This document shows, one piece after another, positions 54,234 to 63,954 of a stretch of DNA of 64,000 nt (positions are counted from its first letter, which is position 1; each line of letters begins with the position of its first letter). Under the pieces are notes generated by a model, which was not told where the DNA came from, made no database searches, and saw only the letters and a program-made list of their open reading frames with translations. The position numbers were made by a program, and so were the translations under genes. The DNA comes from Streptomyces venezuelae (GTDB taxonomy: Bacteria; Actinomycetota; Actinomycetes; Streptomycetales; Streptomycetaceae), in contig NZ_CP029191.1 of NCBI RefSeq assembly GCF_008642335.1, positions 2,790,001 through 2,854,000 on the forward strand, in the 5' to 3' direction.

Positions 54234-55094
54234 TCACCGGAAGACCGACGGGGGCGGGGCGGGTGAGGCGACGGCGGCGGCGTCGGTGACGGCCGCGGCT
54301 CCCCCGCTGAAGTCGAGGAGTCCCCGGCCGTGTTCGACGCGGCCGGGGTGGGGGTCGCCGGCGCAGCGCCGGGTCAGTTCGGCGACGGGCAGCGGACGGT
54401 CGGAGGCGAGCAGCACGGCGTTGCCGAAGCGCTTGCCGCGGAGCACGGCGGGGTCGGCGGCGAGGGCGAGTTCGGGGAAGAGCGCGGCGGCGGTGGCGAG
54501 CTGGCCGCGCAGGTGCGCGAGCGGGGGCCCGTCGGCGAGGTTGGCGACGTAGTACCCGCCGGGTTTCAGGGCCCTGCGGACGTCGGCGAGGAATTCGGTG
54601 CTGGTGAGGTGGGCGGGGGTACGGGCCCCGCTGAAGACGTCGGCGATGACGAGGTCCGCCCATCCGTCCGCGACTTTGGCGAGGCCTTCGCGGGCGTCGG
54701 TGCCGCGCACGCGGACGCGCGCCTGGGGGTCCAGGGGCAACTCGCGACGGACGAGCTGGACCAGGGCGGTGTCGCGCTCGACGACCTGCTGGGTGGAGCG
54801 GGGGCGGGTCGCGGCGACGTAGCGGGCGAGGGTGAGGGCGCCGCCGCCGAGGTGCAGGGCGTGGACGGGCTTGCCGGGCGGGGCGACGAGGTCGGCGATG
54901 TGCCCGATCCTGCGCTGGTACTCGAAGTCGAGGTACGCGGGTTCGTCGAGGTCGACGTGCGACTGCGGCGCACCGTCGACGAGCAGCGTCCAGGCGCGGG
55001 GCCTGTCCCGATCCGGTATGAGCTCGGCGAGCCCCCCGTCGACTTCCTCGACAACGGCTTCCCGCGCCTCCCGGCCCCGCTTGTTCCTCGCCAT
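54234..55094 (-). CDS. Spermidine synthase-like SAM-dependent protein
   Basis: A 286-residue protein with the spermidine-synthase Rossmann fold. SAM binding is suggested by HALHLGGGALTLARYV near residue 78 and VVERDTALVQLVRREL near residue 103, and the catalytic-region strand by WADLVIADVFSGARTP near residue 145, followed by RRALKPGGYYVANLADG. The N-terminal beta extension QSHVDLDEPAYLDFEYQRRIGHIADL fits the family. True spermidine synthases keep an acidic active-site pattern that I cannot confirm here; a methyltransferase is also possible. It converges with the secreted protein gene (10-base gap). Confidence 0.82.
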   Translation of the reverse strand: MARNKRGREAREAVVEEVDGGLAELIPDRDRPRAWTLLVDGAPQSHVDLDEPAYLDFEYQRRIGHIADLVAPPGKPVHALHLGGGALTLARYVAATRPRSTQQVVERDTALVQLVRRELPLDPQARVRVRGTDAREGLAKVADGWADLVIADVFSGARTPAHLTSTEFLADVRRALKPGGYYVANLADGPPLAHLRGQLATAAALFPELALAADPAVLRGKRFGNAVLLASDRPLPVAELTRRCAGDPHPGRVEHGRGLLDFSGGAAAVTDAAAVASPAPPPSVFR

Positions 55095-57350: not shown

Positions 57351-57944
57351 CTACGCGAGGTGGCCCGTCTCGTTCCACGCCTCGATGGCGGGCTCTCCGT
57401 AAGCCCAGCCCAGGACCGAGAGGGACGTCGGGTTGAGGCGGATACGGGCGGCGAACTCGATGCCCAGGCCGAGCCAGCGCGCGCCGATGACCCGCAGGAT
57501 GTGCCCGTGCGCGAAGACCAGCACGTCGCGGTCGGCGCTCCTGGCCCACTCCACGACCTCGTCCGCGCGCGCGGCGACCTCCGCCAGCGTCTCGCCCTCG
57601 GGCACGCCGTCGCGCCAGATGAACCAGCCGGGGCGGACCGCCTGGATGTCGGCTGGGGTCATCCCGTCGTACGCGCCGTAGTCGAACTCCATGAGCGCGT
57701 CCCAGGTGGTGGCACGGTCGCCGAAGCCCGCGATCTCGCAGGTCTCCCGCGCGCGGGACAGCGGACTCGTGCGCACCTCGACATCCGGGAGGCCGTCGTA
57801 GGGCGCGCGGTGCAGCCGCTCACCGAGGAGCTTCGCGCCGCGCCGGCCCTCTTCGAGGAGGGGGATGTCGGTCCTGCCGGTGTGCTTCCCGGACAGCGAC
57901 CACTCCGTCTGTCCGTGCCGGGCCAGCAGGATGCGGGGTGCCAT
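57351..57944 (-). CDS. Histidine phosphatase family protein (phosphoglycerate-mutase-like)
   Basis: A 197-residue enzyme with the histidine-phosphatase motif [10 protein letters not shown] near residue 8, where His accepts the phosphate. The partner residues are in [18 protein letters not shown] near residue 60, [14 protein letters not shown] near residue 80, and the second catalytic His in [19 protein letters not shown] near residue 148. Small size and absence of extra domains fit the broad-specificity phosphatase branch. GGAGAGATCC upstream of the ATG supports the start; an in-frame extension upstream is not needed. The gene converges with the TPR regulator (5-base gap). Substrate unknown. 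Confidence 0.92.
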
Positions 57945-58200
57945 GGGGATCTCTCCAAGTCGTACACATGCCGTTCCGGACACGAACGCCGGTGACACTT
58001 TTGATGCTTTTTCGGGACAGGGGGCGACTGGCCCCCTCCATCATCACCCACCCGTGACAGCGCACCGGCCCCGCCTGGCAACCCGGTCACCGATCTCTGC
58101 GTCTAAGACGACCGGGGGATGCCTCGACCACCCTGGCGTGCGCCGTAAAGTGAGGCCGCGGTATACGCCGCATGAACAGAGACGATGGGGGACCCACCGG

Positions 58201-59175
58201 ATGCCGAAGACCGACGTGCCGGGCACCACGGGCATAACCGGGCACCGGCTCCGCTGGTGGACCGAGCTGCCGCTGATCGTGCTGGTGTACGCCGCGTACT
58301 CCGCCGGCCGGCTGATCGTGCGGGGCGACGTCGCCGGCGCGATCGACCACGGCGTGGGGATCCTCAAGGCCGAGCAGTTCCTGCGTCTCAACGCCGAGAG
58401 CCCGCTGAACCGCCTGTTCACCGCCAACGCCTGGATCGGTGTCCCCGCGGACTTCTGGTACGCCTCGCTGCACTACCTCGTCACGCCCGCCGTGCTCGTC
58501 TGGCTGTTCCGCAGCCACGCGGTCCGCTACCGGGCCGCACGCGCGTGGCTGATGATCTCCACCATGATCGGCCTGATCGGCTTCACGCTCCTGCCGACCT
58601 GTCCGCCCCGGCTCCTGAGCAAGGGGTACGGCTTCGTCGACACCATGGCGCAGTACAGCGACTTCGGCTGGTGGGGCGGCGAGGCGAGCGCGCCGCGCGG
58701 GCTCGGCGGGATGACCAACCAGTACGCGGCGATGCCGAGCCTGCACGTCGGGTGGGCGCTGTGGTGCGGTGTGATGCTGTGGCGGTGCGGGCGTGCCCCG
58801 CTCACCAAGGTGGCCGCCGTCGGCTACCCGCTGATCACCACGATCGTGGTCATGGGCACCGCGAACCACTACTTCTTCGACGCGCTCGCGGGCGCCGCCG
58901 TGATGGGTGTCGGCCTGCTCCTCGTGCGGCCCGTGCAGCGGCTCACCGAGCCCGTGATGGACCGCCTGCGGGCGCGTTTCCTGCGCAGTCCCGAGACCTC
59001 ATCCGCCACAGAGTCCTCGATTGTCGGTGCCGGATGCCAGACTTCGACAGGTGAGCGAATTCCCCGACAGCGCAAGCAGAGTGCCCCCCAGGGCGCCGAG
59101 TCGAGTGCCCGCCCAGCCGAGGCAGGACGACCGGCCGACGTCTCGGGGGACGGCGCTCCGGCACCAGCTCACTGA
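58201..59175 (+). CDS. PAP2-family membrane phosphatase/inositol phosphotransferase-like protein
   Basis: A 324-residue membrane protein with five to six helices. The PAP2 signature is split: PSLHVGWALWCGVMLWR near residue 180 and TANHYFFDALAGAAVMG near residue 222, giving the His/Asp catalytic pair, with LLPTCPPRLL earlier. This pattern matches the Aur1/Ipt1-like inositol phosphorylceramide-type branch, which acts on lipid or polyprenyl phosphates. The C-terminal 80 residues are hydrophilic, rich in Ala/Ser/Glu, and overlap the next gene by up to 125 bases. AUGGGGGA before the ATG is a suitable ribosome-binding site. Confidence 0.85.
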   Translation: MPKTDVPGTTGITGHRLRWWTELPLIVLVYAAYSAGRLIVRGDVAGAIDHGVGILKAEQFLRLNAESPLNRLFTANAWIGVPADFWYASLHYLVTPAVLVWLFRSHAVRYRAARAWLMISTMIGLIGFTLLPTCPPRLLSKGYGFVDTMAQYSDFGWWGGEASAPRGLGGMTNQYAAMPSLHVGWALWCGVMLWRCGRAPLTKVAAVGYPLITTIVVMGTANHYFFDALAGAAVMGVGLLLVRPVQRLTEPVMDRLRARFLRSPETSSATESSIVGAGCQTSTGERIPRQRKQSAPQGAESSARPAEAGRPADVSGDGAPAPAH

Positions 59176-60304
59176 GTTGCGCGGCGCCGACCTGCCCCCG
59201 CGTCCCCTGGACGCCCGGGCGCTGGCCGCCCTCGCGGCCAACCCTGGGTGCAGACGCCGCGCGCTGCTCGACGGCGCGGGCGTGGACAAGACGGCGCTCG
59301 CGGAGTCCCTTGGCTCCCCCTCCGGCTTCGGGCAGTCCCAGTTCGCGTTCATGCGAGGCAACGCCTTCGAGGCGAAGGTCAAGGCCGACGGCGGCGCCGA
59401 GCTGCTGCGCCTGACGCACGGCACGCTGGGCGGCGGTCCCGAACCCGTGCCGGGCGAGGCCGCCGTGCCCGACCTGTCGGCGGCGGGCCCCGAGGGGCGT
59501 GCCGCGCGGACCGCGCTCGCGCTCCGGGAAGCCACCGGGTCGGGCGGCTGGACGCTCCTGGACCACCCGATGCTGGCGCTGGACGTCGCGGGCACGCCCG
59601 CGTTCCTGGAGCCGGACGCGGTGGTGGTCCATCCGGACGGCGGCTGGACCGTCGTCGAGATCAAGTCCTTCCCGATGATCGACGGCTCGGCGGACGCGGC
59701 GAAGGTCGGCGGGGCGGCACGCCAGTCCGCGGTGTACGCACTGGCCCTTGAGCAGGTCGCCGCGCGCATGGACCCGACGCCCCCGGTCCGCAACCACGTG
59801 CTCCTCGTCTGCCCGAAGGACTTCTCCAACCTGCCGACCGCGTCCGCGGTCGACGTCCGCAAGCAGCTGTCGGTGACCCGCCGCCAGCTGGCCCGCCTCA
59901 CCCGCGTCGAGGACATCGCGGCGGAGCTCCCGGAGGGCACCACGTTCGACGTGCGGCGCCCCGCGGCGGAGCTGTCGGCGGCGGTCGAGTCGGTTCCCGC
60001 GACGTACGCCCCCGAATGCCTGGCCGCCTGCGAGCTGGCCTTCCACTGCCGGGCGCGGGCCCGCCAGGAGGGCGAGGTGACGTCCCTGGGCCGCGCGATC
60101 CGCGGCGAGCTCGGCGGGCTGACGTCCATCGGCGACGTCCTGGCGGCCGCCCGCGGCGAGACGGGCGACCCGGACGACCCGGCGGTGGCCACGCTGCGCA
60201 GAGCGGCGGGGCTGCGGCGTGAGGCGCTCGCGGGCGTCGGCTCCCCGGGCAGTGGGGCGACCCTGCACGACGCACTGGCGGAAGAGGGGCAACCGTGTCG
60301 CTGA
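59051..60304 (+). CDS. PD-(D/E)XK nuclease with a Fe-S type cysteine pattern (Cas4/Dna2-like)
   Basis: About 417 residues, the first gene of a three-gene operon. Active-site motif: EPDAVVVHPDG near residue 187 and VVEIKSF near residue 203, fitting the D...ExK core of RecB/Cas4-type nucleases. One cysteine near residue 66 (NPGCRRRALLDG) and three near residues 323-333 in CLAACELAFHC recall the four-cysteine 4Fe-4S clamp of Cas4, AddB and Dna2, but the spacing is CX3CX5C rather than the usual CX2CX5C. The start is uncertain: GTG 59051 overlaps the PAP2 gene by 125 bases, and GTGs at 59081 and 59105 are alternatives. It likely cuts DNA ends together with the helicase. Confidence 0.75.
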   Translation: MSEFPDSASRVPPRAPSRVPAQPRQDDRPTSRGTALRHQLTELRGADLPPRPLDARALAALAANPGCRRRALLDGAGVDKTALAESLGSPSGFGQSQFAFMRGNAFEAKVKADGGAELLRLTHGTLGGGPEPVPGEAAVPDLSAAGPEGRAARTALALREATGSGGWTLLDHPMLALDVAGTPAFLEPDAVVVHPDGGWTVVEIKSFPMIDGSADAAKVGGAARQSAVYALALEQVAARMDPTPPVRNHVLLVCPKDFSNLPTASAVDVRKQLSVTRRQLARLTRVEDIAAELPEGTTFDVRRPAAELSAAVESVPATYAPECLAACELAFHCRARARQEGEVTSLGRAIRGELGGLTSIGDVLAAARGETGDPDDPAVATLRRAAGLRREALAGVGSPGSGATLHDALAEEGQPCR

Positions 60305-61911
60305 TCGACAACCTCGCCCGGCTGGAGGCGGTCACCACCGGCCGCGCCCAACCGCGCGCGACCGTGCGGCACCGGCACATCTCGCAGCGCCCCCTGGTGC
60401 TCGTCCCCCTCACCACCGCCGGTGAGGCGGGCGCGCCGCTCGGCGCGCTCGTCGGGACGGAGCGGACCTCCCCGCGGCTCCTCGTCGTGCCCCAGCCCCG
60501 CGACCGCGACCTGCGCTTCGCGTTCCTCGCGCAGCTCGCCGAGATCGTCCTGCCGTACGTGGAGGCGTACGGCGAGGACGTCGAGGCCGCCGAGCGCAAC
60601 GAGACCGACCCGGAGACGGGCAAGCGCGTCAAGGTCGAGGTCGAGCTGTGCGCGGACGCCCCGCAACTGATCGTGCCGAGCCGCGCGGGCATCGACTTCG
60701 TCCGGCTCCTCGGCCGCTCCACGCGTTTCCGCCGCACCGCGGAGCAGGACCCCGAGGCGCCGTATCCCGCGCCGCCCCGCGTCCCCCTCCTCGGCCGCTG
60801 GCTGACGCACTTCGGCGAGCGCGCCCGCGTTCCCGGGTCTTGCCTGCTCACCGCCATGACCGAGCTGCTGTCCCGGCACTGGGCGACGGGCCAGTCCAGT
60901 CTGGAGGACCAGCACCTGGGCGCCCTGCTCGCCTGGATCGAGGCGCCCGAGGGCACGTCCGGCGCCGAGGCCGCGCTCCGCGCCGAGCTGGCCCGCGACG
61001 CGGCCGGGCAGCTCCTGTGCCCGCCCGCGGGCCCGGCCACGGACCCGGCGTTCGACAACGACCTGCTGGCCCCCGCCATGGAGCGGTACGACCGCGCGCG
61101 CAGCGCCCTCGCGGCCGCCGAGGACGGCGTCGAGGCCGACGAGCGGCTGGCGCGCCTGACCGCCGCCGAGCGGGAGATCCACGCCCTGATCGAGAGCAGG
61201 ACCCGCCCCACCTGGGACGCGGTGTGGCGCGGCCTCGACGCCCTGTGCACGCTCCCCGAGGCGCCGCACGCCGCGGACCGGTGGACCCGCGACCGCTGGT
61301 CGTTCACCGCCCACCGCGACCGCATCACGGCCGGCGAGCCCCCGCAGCCGCGCGTCGACGACGCGGTCACCGCGGCCAACAAGCTGGCCACGCGCGAGCG
61401 CGAGCAGGCCCGTCTCGACGCCCAGGAGGCCCTGGACGACCCCCTGGTGATGGCGGGCCGCCGCCTCGCGGGAGAGGCCTTCGTCGGCGAGGTGACGGAG
61501 GTCGTCATGGCGTACAGCGAGGCGAAGAGCCCGCGGCCGCGCCCGCTCGTCACCGTCCGCACGGACGACCGCCCGCACCTCGGCGAGCGCACGAAGGTGT
61601 ACCGCGCGCTGGGCGGGAAGCCGCAGACAGCGGAGTTCGTGGCGTACGACGGCGAGAGCGAGGACAGCGGCAGCGGCAGCGGCAAGGACACCGTCGTGCT
61701 GCGGATCACCGACAAGATGGGCCGCGGCAAGGAGCCCGAGCCGGGGTCCGTGCCCGGCAAGGGCGACCGGATCTGCTGGACGCTCTTCGAGCACGAGCAG
61801 CGCGGCGGCCCGAAGCTGCCCGATCCGGAGGAGACGCCGTGGACGCACGGCGGGCCGCCGTCGGCCGCCGCGGAGAGCCCCGACCCCGTGACCGCGGAGG
61901 ACACCCTGTGA
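60295..61911 (+). CDS. Unknown protein of a nuclease-helicase operon
   Basis: A 538-residue soluble protein; I do not recognise its family. GAAGAGGGG precedes the GTG start, which overlaps the nuclease stop by ten bases. The N-terminal half is mixed alpha/beta (residues 35-130 strand-rich); residues 255-300 and 345-400 are helical. The C-terminal part (residues 405-490) is beta-rich (RPRPLVTVRTDDRP, DTVVLRITDKMGRG, GDRICWTLFEHEQ) after a Gly/Ser-rich linker (GSGSGSGK). Such a beta module may supply the domain-1B/OB-like barrel that Dna2/Upf1-type helicases carry in one chain; this is a guess. The stop overlaps the helicase start by one base. Confidence 0.78.
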   Translation: MSLIDNLARLEAVTTGRAQPRATVRHRHISQRPLVLVPLTTAGEAGAPLGALVGTERTSPRLLVVPQPRDRDLRFAFLAQLAEIVLPYVEAYGEDVEAAERNETDPETGKRVKVEVELCADAPQLIVPSRAGIDFVRLLGRSTRFRRTAEQDPEAPYPAPPRVPLLGRWLTHFGERARVPGSCLLTAMTELLSRHWATGQSSLEDQHLGALLAWIEAPEGTSGAEAALRAELARDAAGQLLCPPAGPATDPAFDNDLLAPAMERYDRARSALAAAEDGVEADERLARLTAAEREIHALIESRTRPTWDAVWRGLDALCTLPEAPHAADRWTRDRWSFTAHRDRITAGEPPQPRVDDAVTAANKLATREREQARLDAQEALDDPLVMAGRRLAGEAFVGEVTEVVMAYSEAKSPRPRPLVTVRTDDRPHLGERTKVYRALGGKPQTAEFVAYDGESEDSGSGSGKDTVVLRITDKMGRGKEPEPGSVPGKGDRICWTLFEHEQRGGPKLPDPEETPWTHGGPPSAAAESPDPVTAEDTL

Positions 61912-63275
61912 TGCCGCTCGCCCCGCCCGCGGGCGCCTCCTTCGACCCCGGCGCCGAGGCCGCGCGCGCCACGGAGGCGATCCTCCACGACACGCTGCAC
62001 GGCACGCACCGCGGCGTCGTGGTCGACTCGCCGCCCGGCGCGGGCAAGTCGACGCTCGTCGTCCGCGCGGCCCGTGAGCTGGCCGCGGCGGGCCACCCGC
62101 TGATGGTCATCGCGCAGACGAACGCGCAGGTCGACGACCTCGTCCTGCGGCTCGCCGAGAAGGACCCCGAGCTGCCGGTGGGCCGCCTGCACAGCAGCGA
62201 CCCCGACCCCTACGACAAGGCGCTCGACGCCCTCGCGAACGTCCGCACGTCGACGAAGGCGGGTGACCTCGCCGGTCTGGACGTCGTCATCTCCACGGCC
62301 GCGAAGTGGGCGCACGTCAAGGTCGACCAGCTCGACGGGCCGTGGGGGCACGCGATCGTCGACGAGGCGTACCAGATGCGGTCGGACGCGCTGCTCGCCG
62401 TGGCAGGGCTGTTCGAACGGGCGCTGTTCGTGGGCGACCCGGGGCAGTTGGACCCGTTCTCGATCGTCGGCGCGGAGCAATGGGCGGGGCTCTCGTACGA
62501 TCCGTCGGCCTCGGCGGTGGCGACGCTCCTCGCCCACAACCCCGACCTGCCGCAGCACCGCCTGCCGGTGTCCTGGCGGCTGCCTGCGTCGGCGGCGCCG
62601 CTGGTCTCCGACGCGTTCTACCCGTACACGCCGTTCCGCAGCGGCACGGGTCCGGGGGACCGCTCGCTGGGCTTCGCGGTCGCGTCGGACGGTTCGGGCC
62701 CCGACCGGGTGATCGACGAGGCGGCGGAGTCCGGCTGGGGCCTGCTCGAACTCCCGGCGCGCAACACGCCGCGCACGGATCCGGAGGCGGTACGGGCGCT
62801 GGCCCAGGTCGTCCGCCGCCTCCTGGACCGCGGCGGGGCGGCGACGTCGGAGCGCGACCCCGACCCCACCCCTCTCACCGCGGACCGGATCGCGGTCGGC
62901 ACGGCCCACCGGGACCAGGCGGCGGCGGTCCGCGCGGCGTTGGCGGACCTGGGGGTCCTGGACGTCACCGTGGACACGGCGAACCGTTTGCAGGGCCGCG
63001 AGTACGACGTCACAGTCGTCCTCCACCCGCTCTCGGGCCGCCCCGACGCGACGGCGTTCCACCTGGAGACGGGCCGCCTCTGCGTCCTGACGTCCCGGCA
63101 CCGGCACGCGTGCATCGTGGTCTGCCGCGCGGGCGTCACGACCCTCCTGGACGACCACCCGTCGACGGAACCGGTCCAACTGGGCGTCACGGTGAAATTC
63201 CCCGACGGCTGGGAAGCGAACCACGCGGTCCTGTCCCGCCTGGCGGAACACCGGGTGGCCTGGCGGCCTGCGTAG
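61911..63275 (+). CDS. SF1 DNA/RNA helicase of Upf1/Dna2 type
   Basis: A 454-residue superfamily 1 helicase. Motif I is VDSPPGAGKST near residue 42, motif II IVDEAYQM near residue 151, motif III LFVGDPGQLDPFS near residue 172, then VSWRLP near residue 218. Motif V is TANRLQGREYDVTVV near residue 355 and motif VI LTSRHRHACIVV near residue 392 (Thr-Ser-Arg-x-Arg arginine finger). The set is complete and resembles Upf1/Dna2 helicases, but the protein is short and has no visible 1B barrel or nuclease domain. It overlaps the preceding gene by one base (TGATG), so the three proteins are probably made together. Confidence 0.9.
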   Translation: MPLAPPAGASFDPGAEAARATEAILHDTLHGTHRGVVVDSPPGAGKSTLVVRAARELAAAGHPLMVIAQTNAQVDDLVLRLAEKDPELPVGRLHSSDPDPYDKALDALANVRTSTKAGDLAGLDVVISTAAKWAHVKVDQLDGPWGHAIVDEAYQMRSDALLAVAGLFERALFVGDPGQLDPFSIVGAEQWAGLSYDPSASAVATLLAHNPDLPQHRLPVSWRLPASAAPLVSDAFYPYTPFRSGTGPGDRSLGFAVASDGSGPDRVIDEAAESGWGLLELPARNTPRTDPEAVRALAQVVRRLLDRGGAATSERDPDPTPLTADRIAVGTAHRDQAAAVRAALADLGVLDVTVDTANRLQGREYDVTVVLHPLSGRPDATAFHLETGRLCVLTSRHRHACIVVCRAGVTTLLDDHPSTEPVQLGVTVKFPDGWEANHAVLSRLAEHRVAWRPA

Positions 63276-63603: not shown

Positions 63604-63954
63604 ATGGCGGAGCCCGAGCGGCCCCGGACCGAACAGCGCATGCGCCCCGCGCCCCTGCTCTTCGAACCCGCGGAGGCCGGCGCCGACCCGGAGCACTTCT
63701 TCGACCTGGAGTCGATAGAGGACCCGCGAGAGCTGCTCGACCGCGCCACCGAGCTGACACACGCGTTCCGCGCCGCCACGGACCGGTCCGTCGAGTTCCA
63801 GGCCATCGCGGCCGCCCAGCTCGCCGACCCACGCCGCTTCGACCGGCTCACCCCCGCACTGATCGCGGAGCGCGCGGAGTGGACCGAGGACTACGCGAAG
63901 AAGATGGTCGAGTTCGGCCGGGGTCTGCTGCGGGGCGGCGCCGAGCACCCGTAG
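63604..63954 (+). CDS. Small helical hypothetical protein
   Basis: A 116-residue acidic protein with a clear GAGGAGGAA before the ATG. The first 30 residues are Pro/Arg-rich and probably disordered; the remainder is helical (DPRELLDRATELTHAFRAAT, QAIAAAQLADPRRFDRLT and EWTEDYAKKMVEFGRG). There is no signal, membrane helix or metal-binding pattern. Third-position GC bias supports it as a real gene. No family is recognised, and only 46 bases of the window follow it. Confidence 0.75.
   Translation: MAEPERPRTEQRMRPAPLLFEPAEAGADPEHFFDLESIEDPRELLDRATELTHAFRAATDRSVEFQAIAAAQLADPRRFDRLTPALIAERAEWTEDYAKKMVEFGRGLLRGGAEHP

Follow-up and report, generated by a model that had tools for sequence, protein, structure and literature searches.

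A core Streptomyces gene trio as a probable three-chain DNA2-like helicase-nuclease

In eukaryotic DNA2 an iron-staple nuclease, a 1B barrel and a superfamily 1 (SF1) helicase motor are carried by one chain, while AddAB, AdnAB and RecBCD are multi-subunit helicase-nucleases for DNA ends that use UvrD-type motors. Bad, a protein of Geobacillus stearothermophilus, is described as a single chain in which an iron-sulfur nuclease is followed by a conserved central domain, for which no homologues are known, and by an SF1B helicase; the enzyme unwinds in the 5'-3' direction and acts as a DNA looping motor, its biological role was not established, and in the Geobacilli that its authors examined a type III Mod-like gene adjoins it (PMC7430649). 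Here we analyze three adjacent genes, named A, B and C, located in a 64,000-nucleotide (nt) stretch of the Streptomyces venezuelae chromosome (assembly GCF_008642335.1, contig NZ_CP029191.1, positions 2,790,001 to 2,854,000 of the forward strand; hereafter the window). They follow the same order of parts as Bad, i.e. nuclease, central part and SF1 helicase, and some of their relatives lie beside type III restriction-modification genes, a setting that recalls the Mod-like neighbour; Bad is, however, one chain and A-B-C three, and B is likened to the central domain by its place in the layout. We consider it likely that A-B-C constitutes a three-chain DNA2/Bad-like helicase-nuclease for DNA ends, which would serve in the destruction of foreign DNA in its accessory copies and as a core set in Streptomyces. 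Although single-chain Bad is already known, this putative three-chain form of a DNA2-like helicase-nuclease appears to be new, and no title or abstract opening dealing with the operon appeared in the literature searched, most subscription journals and bioRxiv being outside the scope of that search.

The three genes are found on the forward strand at 59051-60304 (A, 417 amino acids, GTG start), 60295-61911 (B, 538 amino acids, GTG start) and 61911-63275 (C, 454 amino acids, ATG start). A previous interpretation made from the letters alone (the sequence-only reading) had claimed overlaps of 10 and 1 bases, and the open reading frame (ORF) coordinates confirm both, at the A/B and B/C junctions respectively. 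An alternative start of A exists at GTG 59105, and near homologues start at both sites. The same reading had attributed to A a PD-(D/E)XK core with a four-cysteine pattern, and the corresponding residues proved to be strictly conserved: E107, D189, E203, K205, Q225 and Y229, as well as cysteines C67, C323, C327 and C333, are the same in all 29 aligned homologues. The catalytic ExK motif corresponds to E203-I-K205 (59657..59665, forward strand), with D189 upstream and Q225xxxY229 downstream, while C323-x3-C327-x5-C333 (60017..60049, forward strand) would form with C67 an iron-sulfur staple, the cluster itself being deduced from the four-cysteine pattern. Structure prediction gives a PD-(D/E)XK fold of the Cas4/EXO5/AddAB type, and we therefore regard A as a predicted iron-staple nuclease of the Cas4/AddB/EXO5 type, families that act on DNA. 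Primary sequence comparisons were less informative, with no Pfam family at an E value of 1 or better (and so no match to the Cas4 family PF01930), no NCBIfam or PADLOC match above the curated cut-off, and nothing convincing when the sequence profile was compared with the PDB.

The middle gene, previously described as large and unrecognised, remains without a Pfam, NCBIfam or PADLOC match above the curated cut-off, and its sequence profile gave nothing convincing against the PDB either. Its AlphaFold2 model (predicted local distance difference test 87.3, predicted template modelling score 0.85) was more revealing. Residues 31-250 (60385..61044, forward strand) are modelled as an RNase H-like domain, similar to the exonuclease of family-B DNA polymerases and predicted to be inactive, the fold being devoid of the acidic pair, with DxE absent. 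Residues 251-501 (61045..61797, forward strand) comprise long helices, read as a stalk, and a beta-barrel (394-501) that we read as a helicase domain 1B supplied in trans; the model of this C-terminal part gave matches to senataxin, Sen1 and Dna2 in their barrel region (residues 456-570 of Dna2). Gene B is homologous across the two main clades of the set (hhalign E 1.8e-20 over 434 columns). A metagenomic protein of 789 amino acids, P0351, consists of B joined to the first part of C; it is the only such fusion seen, it is partial, and it could result from read-through.

Gene C provides the helicase signature that had been proposed for the third gene, a full set of SF1 motifs of the Upf1/Dna2 type. 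The segments P41PGxGK46, Q69TN, D151EAxQM, G175DPGQ, Q361G and S395RH, which we take to be motifs I, Ia, II, III, V and VI, are each conserved in 95% or more of the 31 aligned rows. Pfam assigns C to AAA_11 (3.9e-13) and AAA_12 (1.1e-7), families that are common to Upf1-type helicases, and DNA2 chains are its best matches by sequence in the PDB (5e-7), followed by SMUBP-2 (6e-6). Only about 40 residues precede Walker A, which leaves no room for a 1B domain of its own, whereas an N-terminal 1B domain is part of the anatomy of Dna2/Sen1-type helicases. As modelled, the set would resemble eukaryotic DNA2 in combining an SF1 motor and a 1B barrel with an iron-staple nuclease, and would differ from it in being divided into three chains and in having an extra RNase H-like domain. 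With AddAB, AdnAB and RecBCD it may share a multi-subunit organization and a similar predicted nuclease fold, but C belongs to AAA_11/AAA_12 and not to the UvrD-type SF1A motors, its 15 Pfam matches at E 1 including no UvrD family. Mokosh and other SF1 defence helicases of PADLOC show a weak and partial resemblance to the helicase of C (MkoC 3e-8, MkoA 5e-8), while PADLOC has no model matching A or B and a PLD nuclease is absent.

The three genes behave as a unit: of 296 genomes of the phylum, 13 have strong matches to A, and these same 13 have strong matches to B and to C. These C matches have E values of 1.7e-45 or lower, the next one being at 3.4e-16; the B set is made of 11 genomes detected with a single sequence plus G307 and G390, detected by profile; and A matched 14 genomes, from which G328 was removed because its match (3.7e-4) is not a relative, the protein there being by eye a UvrD-type helicase-nuclease. 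Extending the B profile to 396 genomes gave strong matches in 16 (best E per genome 4e-101 or lower) and two marginal ones, at L140 and L141 (in G523 and G264, both of family f42; E 5e-4 and 1e-3), which cover a similar stretch, positions 51-127 and 51-111. All three genes were present in 38 of the 42 entries examined (34 distinct loci), with the same order and on one strand in every one, and with nuclease and helicase always encoded separately. In three of the remaining entries (L047, L052 and L059) the sequence begins inside B, and in the fourth (L015) C is located about 36 kb from A-B. The A-B overlap in the 34 distinct loci is of 4 nt in 21, 10 nt in eight and of another kind in five, from a 211-nt overlap that probably reflects a wrong start to a 174-nt gap; genes in the fetched loci were called by a home-made script based on ORFs and codon GC, which also chose the start codons, and boundaries are approximate. 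A, B and C also show correlated pairwise distances (Spearman 0.88-0.90 over 31 loci). Co-occurrence of the trio and the PD-(D/E)XK fold of A were checks set beforehand for the split Dna2-like machine that the sequence-only reading had envisaged; both turned out in its favour, and the idea gains further support from the modelled presence in B of the 1B barrel absent from C and from the P0351 fusion.

Other arrangements around C-like helicases were also considered. In Actinomycetospora and Nocardioides, proteins of 896-952 amino acids (L067:3163-5853, L068:2978-5836) adjoin a C-like helicase and have an N-terminus that by eye is four-cysteine nuclease-like, making them candidate A-B fusions; a two-gene form of this kind is nevertheless not claimed, hhalign being too weak both to A (P 0.017) and to B (P 0.007). 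A C-like helicase is also present in 48 plasmid records, mostly of Rhodococcus and Mycobacterium, and the one plasmid example examined (Rhodococcus, L080:5833-7131) has AAA and VWA genes upstream and no match to A or B. No relative was detected in viral contigs, searched with a distant C, or in phage records, searched with the C of the window.

The copy in the window is core in Streptomyces. A was matched in 129 of 132 genomes of the genus and in seven of 15 others of the order (any copy being counted), and the window's own genome, a single contig of 8.05 Mb, holds one match to C. Homologues of the window genes at 54234 and 55960 occur in each of the six core loci fetched, that of gene 57351 in four, and that of the PAP2-type gene at 57865 in two (L118 and L122), where it is directly upstream of A. 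In a tree of 40 C proteins, in which some forks are open and the outgroup branch is long, 11 core copies form one group (support 92/99), nested among other Streptomyces-type copies (85/91 with the group of L108-L112 and L042). The earlier suggestion that this is a core rather than a mobile system is therefore upheld for the window copy by its distribution and synteny, but it does not extend to its relatives, which are found on plasmids and in defence neighbourhoods. B relatives are present in Micromonospora, Nocardia, Sphaerisporangium, Actinoplanes and Actinomadura (among 120 of 149 matches listed), and a scan of genome contigs with a distant C yielded 26 loci of sporadic distribution, including records of Arthrobacter, Acidimicrobiia, Palauibacter, Planctomycetales, Acidobacteria and Chloroflexota.

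Outside the core locus, 21 loci were compared (L039-L042, L079, L081, L104-L117 and L144), some of which are near copies of each other. In 18 of them a further gene, g0 (281-324 amino acids in the four translated), is immediately upstream of A, e.g. L079:2318-3163; no such gene was seen in the genome of the window, in the six core loci or in L039, L116 and L117, and none of the three g0 proteins scanned had a Pfam family above cut-off. A divergent SbcD-SbcC pair adjoins g0 in nine of the 18 (L041, L104-L107, L113-L115 and L144), with remnants in L079; Pfam backs both SbcC and an SbcD-type phosphoesterase in L041, SbcC in L114 and an SbcD-type phosphoesterase in L106. The window's genome has a single SbcD-like match, 31% identical and far from A-B-C. 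Wadjet genes are located near A-B-C in five loci, two by annotation (L079, L144) and three by PADLOC (L106, L107, L115). The clearest case is L144, on a linear plasmid of Streptomyces sp. NBC_01244, with the arrangement SbcC-SbcD / g0-A-B-C-JetA-JetB-JetC-JetD, where JetA-C were assigned from DUF3375, DUF4194 and ATP-binding annotations. Wadjet cuts DNA that is circular but not DNA that is linear, and ends of linear DNA are recognised by the Rad50 complex (PMC10586767), which would make the L144 gene set a plausible defence against DNA of both shapes. Matches to type III methyltransferase models are present in L108 and L109, and to PD-Lambda-1 in L112. These PADLOC results, obtained with 10 chosen neighbours of accessory loci and 10 of the scattered clade described below, are examples and not rates.

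A second, scattered clade includes loci where PADLOC identified defence genes next to the set: type III Mod and Res (L043), a HEC-06/Orf5-type protein (L044), HEC-05 with a ThsA-like SIR2 protein (L048), and AbiTii with the Azaca genes ZacABC (L049). A UvrD-PDDEXK gene accompanies L043-L047 (supported by Pfam for L037/L043 and L044). By eye, neighbours could be named as integrase, TraA, transposase, cysteine synthase, murI, rph, rdgB, arsC and aquaporin genes, with DUF262 in L046 and SIR2 in L050. Weighing against a role purely in defence, 10 of 11 further loci of this clade appear by eye to lie among housekeeping-like genes (cysteine synthase, murI, rph and rdgB-like genes), the eleventh, L047, being beside the UvrD-nuclease and an unnamed protein; no defence gene was seen by eye in L055. 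In L036 and in 11 of the loci L051-L063, of Acidimicrobiia type, C is followed by a protein D, which in L036 (L036:1559-3253) overlaps C by 17 nt and matches RNase_H_2 above cut-off and PDDEXK_1 below it. By eye, D resembles TM0106 and keeps DxE. TM0106-type proteins (TIGR03491 and fused relatives) consist of nuclease, RNase H-like and SF1 helicase parts, a composition similar to that of A-B-C, but D retains the DxE that B lacks; hhalign of A and of B against D gave nothing, and TIGR03491 is not listed for A, B or C and has no match in the genome of the window. The remaining helicase matches of C (E 3.4e-16 and weaker) were discarded as different proteins, several of them long, fused and similar to the RNase_H_2 part of D, and in 17 of these loci the A and B profiles matched no ORF tested. 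The set is therefore fixed in ordinary chromosomal surroundings in two lineages, core Streptomyces and the housekeeping-like scattered one, and its presence there as well as in defence neighbourhoods fits best with DNA-end processing both in and outside defence.

The assembly of the complex, its polarity, its substrate and its biological role we infer from gene order, conservation, co-occurrence, motifs and neighbourhoods, combined with the predicted folds. C would supply the two RecA-like motor domains and B the 1B barrel and stalk needed to complete the motor, the inactive RNase H-like domain of B probably guiding or scaffolding the DNA, so that the iron-sulfur nuclease A could cut the single strand fed by the motor, most likely at free 5' ends or at junctions of single- and double-stranded DNA. 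The result would be the processing or degradation of DNA ends. For the accessory copies, SbcCD, Wadjet or type III restriction might open or sense the DNA, after which A-B-C would degrade it from its ends, while the Streptomyces core copy may be a fixed set handling broken or incoming linear DNA. A bolder version, which we put forward only tentatively, is that SbcCD, A-B-C and Wadjet form one immunity module, a bacterial counterpart of resection by Mre11-Rad50 and DNA2, in which Wadjet would linearise circular invaders and SbcCD/A-B-C would destroy linear DNA, the core Streptomyces copy being a domesticated descendant.

The neighbourhoods could also be explained if A-B-C served exclusively in housekeeping repair, as a second actinobacterial enzyme for DNA-end resection or flap processing, with its proximity to defence genes reflecting traffic in genomic islands. 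The core status and partial synteny in the genus agree with this explanation, as do the second lineage beside cysteine-synthase, murI, rph and rdgB-like genes and the fact that 10 core-locus neighbours (eight from the window and two from L118) gave just three weak PADLOC matches. We nonetheless find it rather unlikely, since two plasmids carry SbcCD, g0-A-B-C and Wadjet next to each other, Wadjet is also close to three chromosomal or contig loci, type III restriction-modification genes are neighbours in two separate clades, and the scattered clade is sporadically distributed. That the three products are co-expressed but work apart, the operon reflecting nothing else than a shared transcript, seems considerably less probable: C is about 36 kb from A-B in G343 and the partners (g0, D, SbcCD, UvrD-nuclease) vary, but G343 still keeps all three genes, the distances of A, B and C co-vary, and the motor core C lacks the 1B part present in the model of B. 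Least probable of all is a Upf1/senataxin-like motor plus nuclease removing RNA-DNA hybrids (R-loops), for although the B barrel also matches Sen1 and senataxin and C has the domains shared with Upf1-type helicases, A has the motifs and predicted fold of DNA-acting families, the best PDB match of C is DNA2, and SbcCD, Wadjet, restriction-modification and UvrD-nuclease partners all act on DNA.

Some features of the immediate surroundings in the window can be added. The PAP2-type gene (57865-59175, same strand) runs 125 nt into A, or 71 nt if GTG 59105 is used as its start. Between 57800 and 64000 no promoter-like site was detected, and there was one terminator-like site versus 1.0 expected. A 20-base G+C-rich element, GCGCAGTTCCCCGCGCCCCT, has five exact copies in the window (8882, 15868, 63307, 63378 and 63474; 0 expected), three of them directly 3' of C, in both orientations. 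Downstream, a small gene (63604-63954, about 116 amino acids) without PADLOC match resembles by eye the gene that follows C in L118.

This work gives a core, unannotated gene set of Streptomyces a predicted structure and role. Besides presenting a DNA2-like machine that nature has already divided into three parts, A-B-C suggests that the central domain of DNA2-like enzymes may be composed of an RNase H-like fold plus helicase domain 1B, and it makes testable in bacteria the participation of DNA2-type end processing, together with SbcCD and Wadjet, against foreign DNA.

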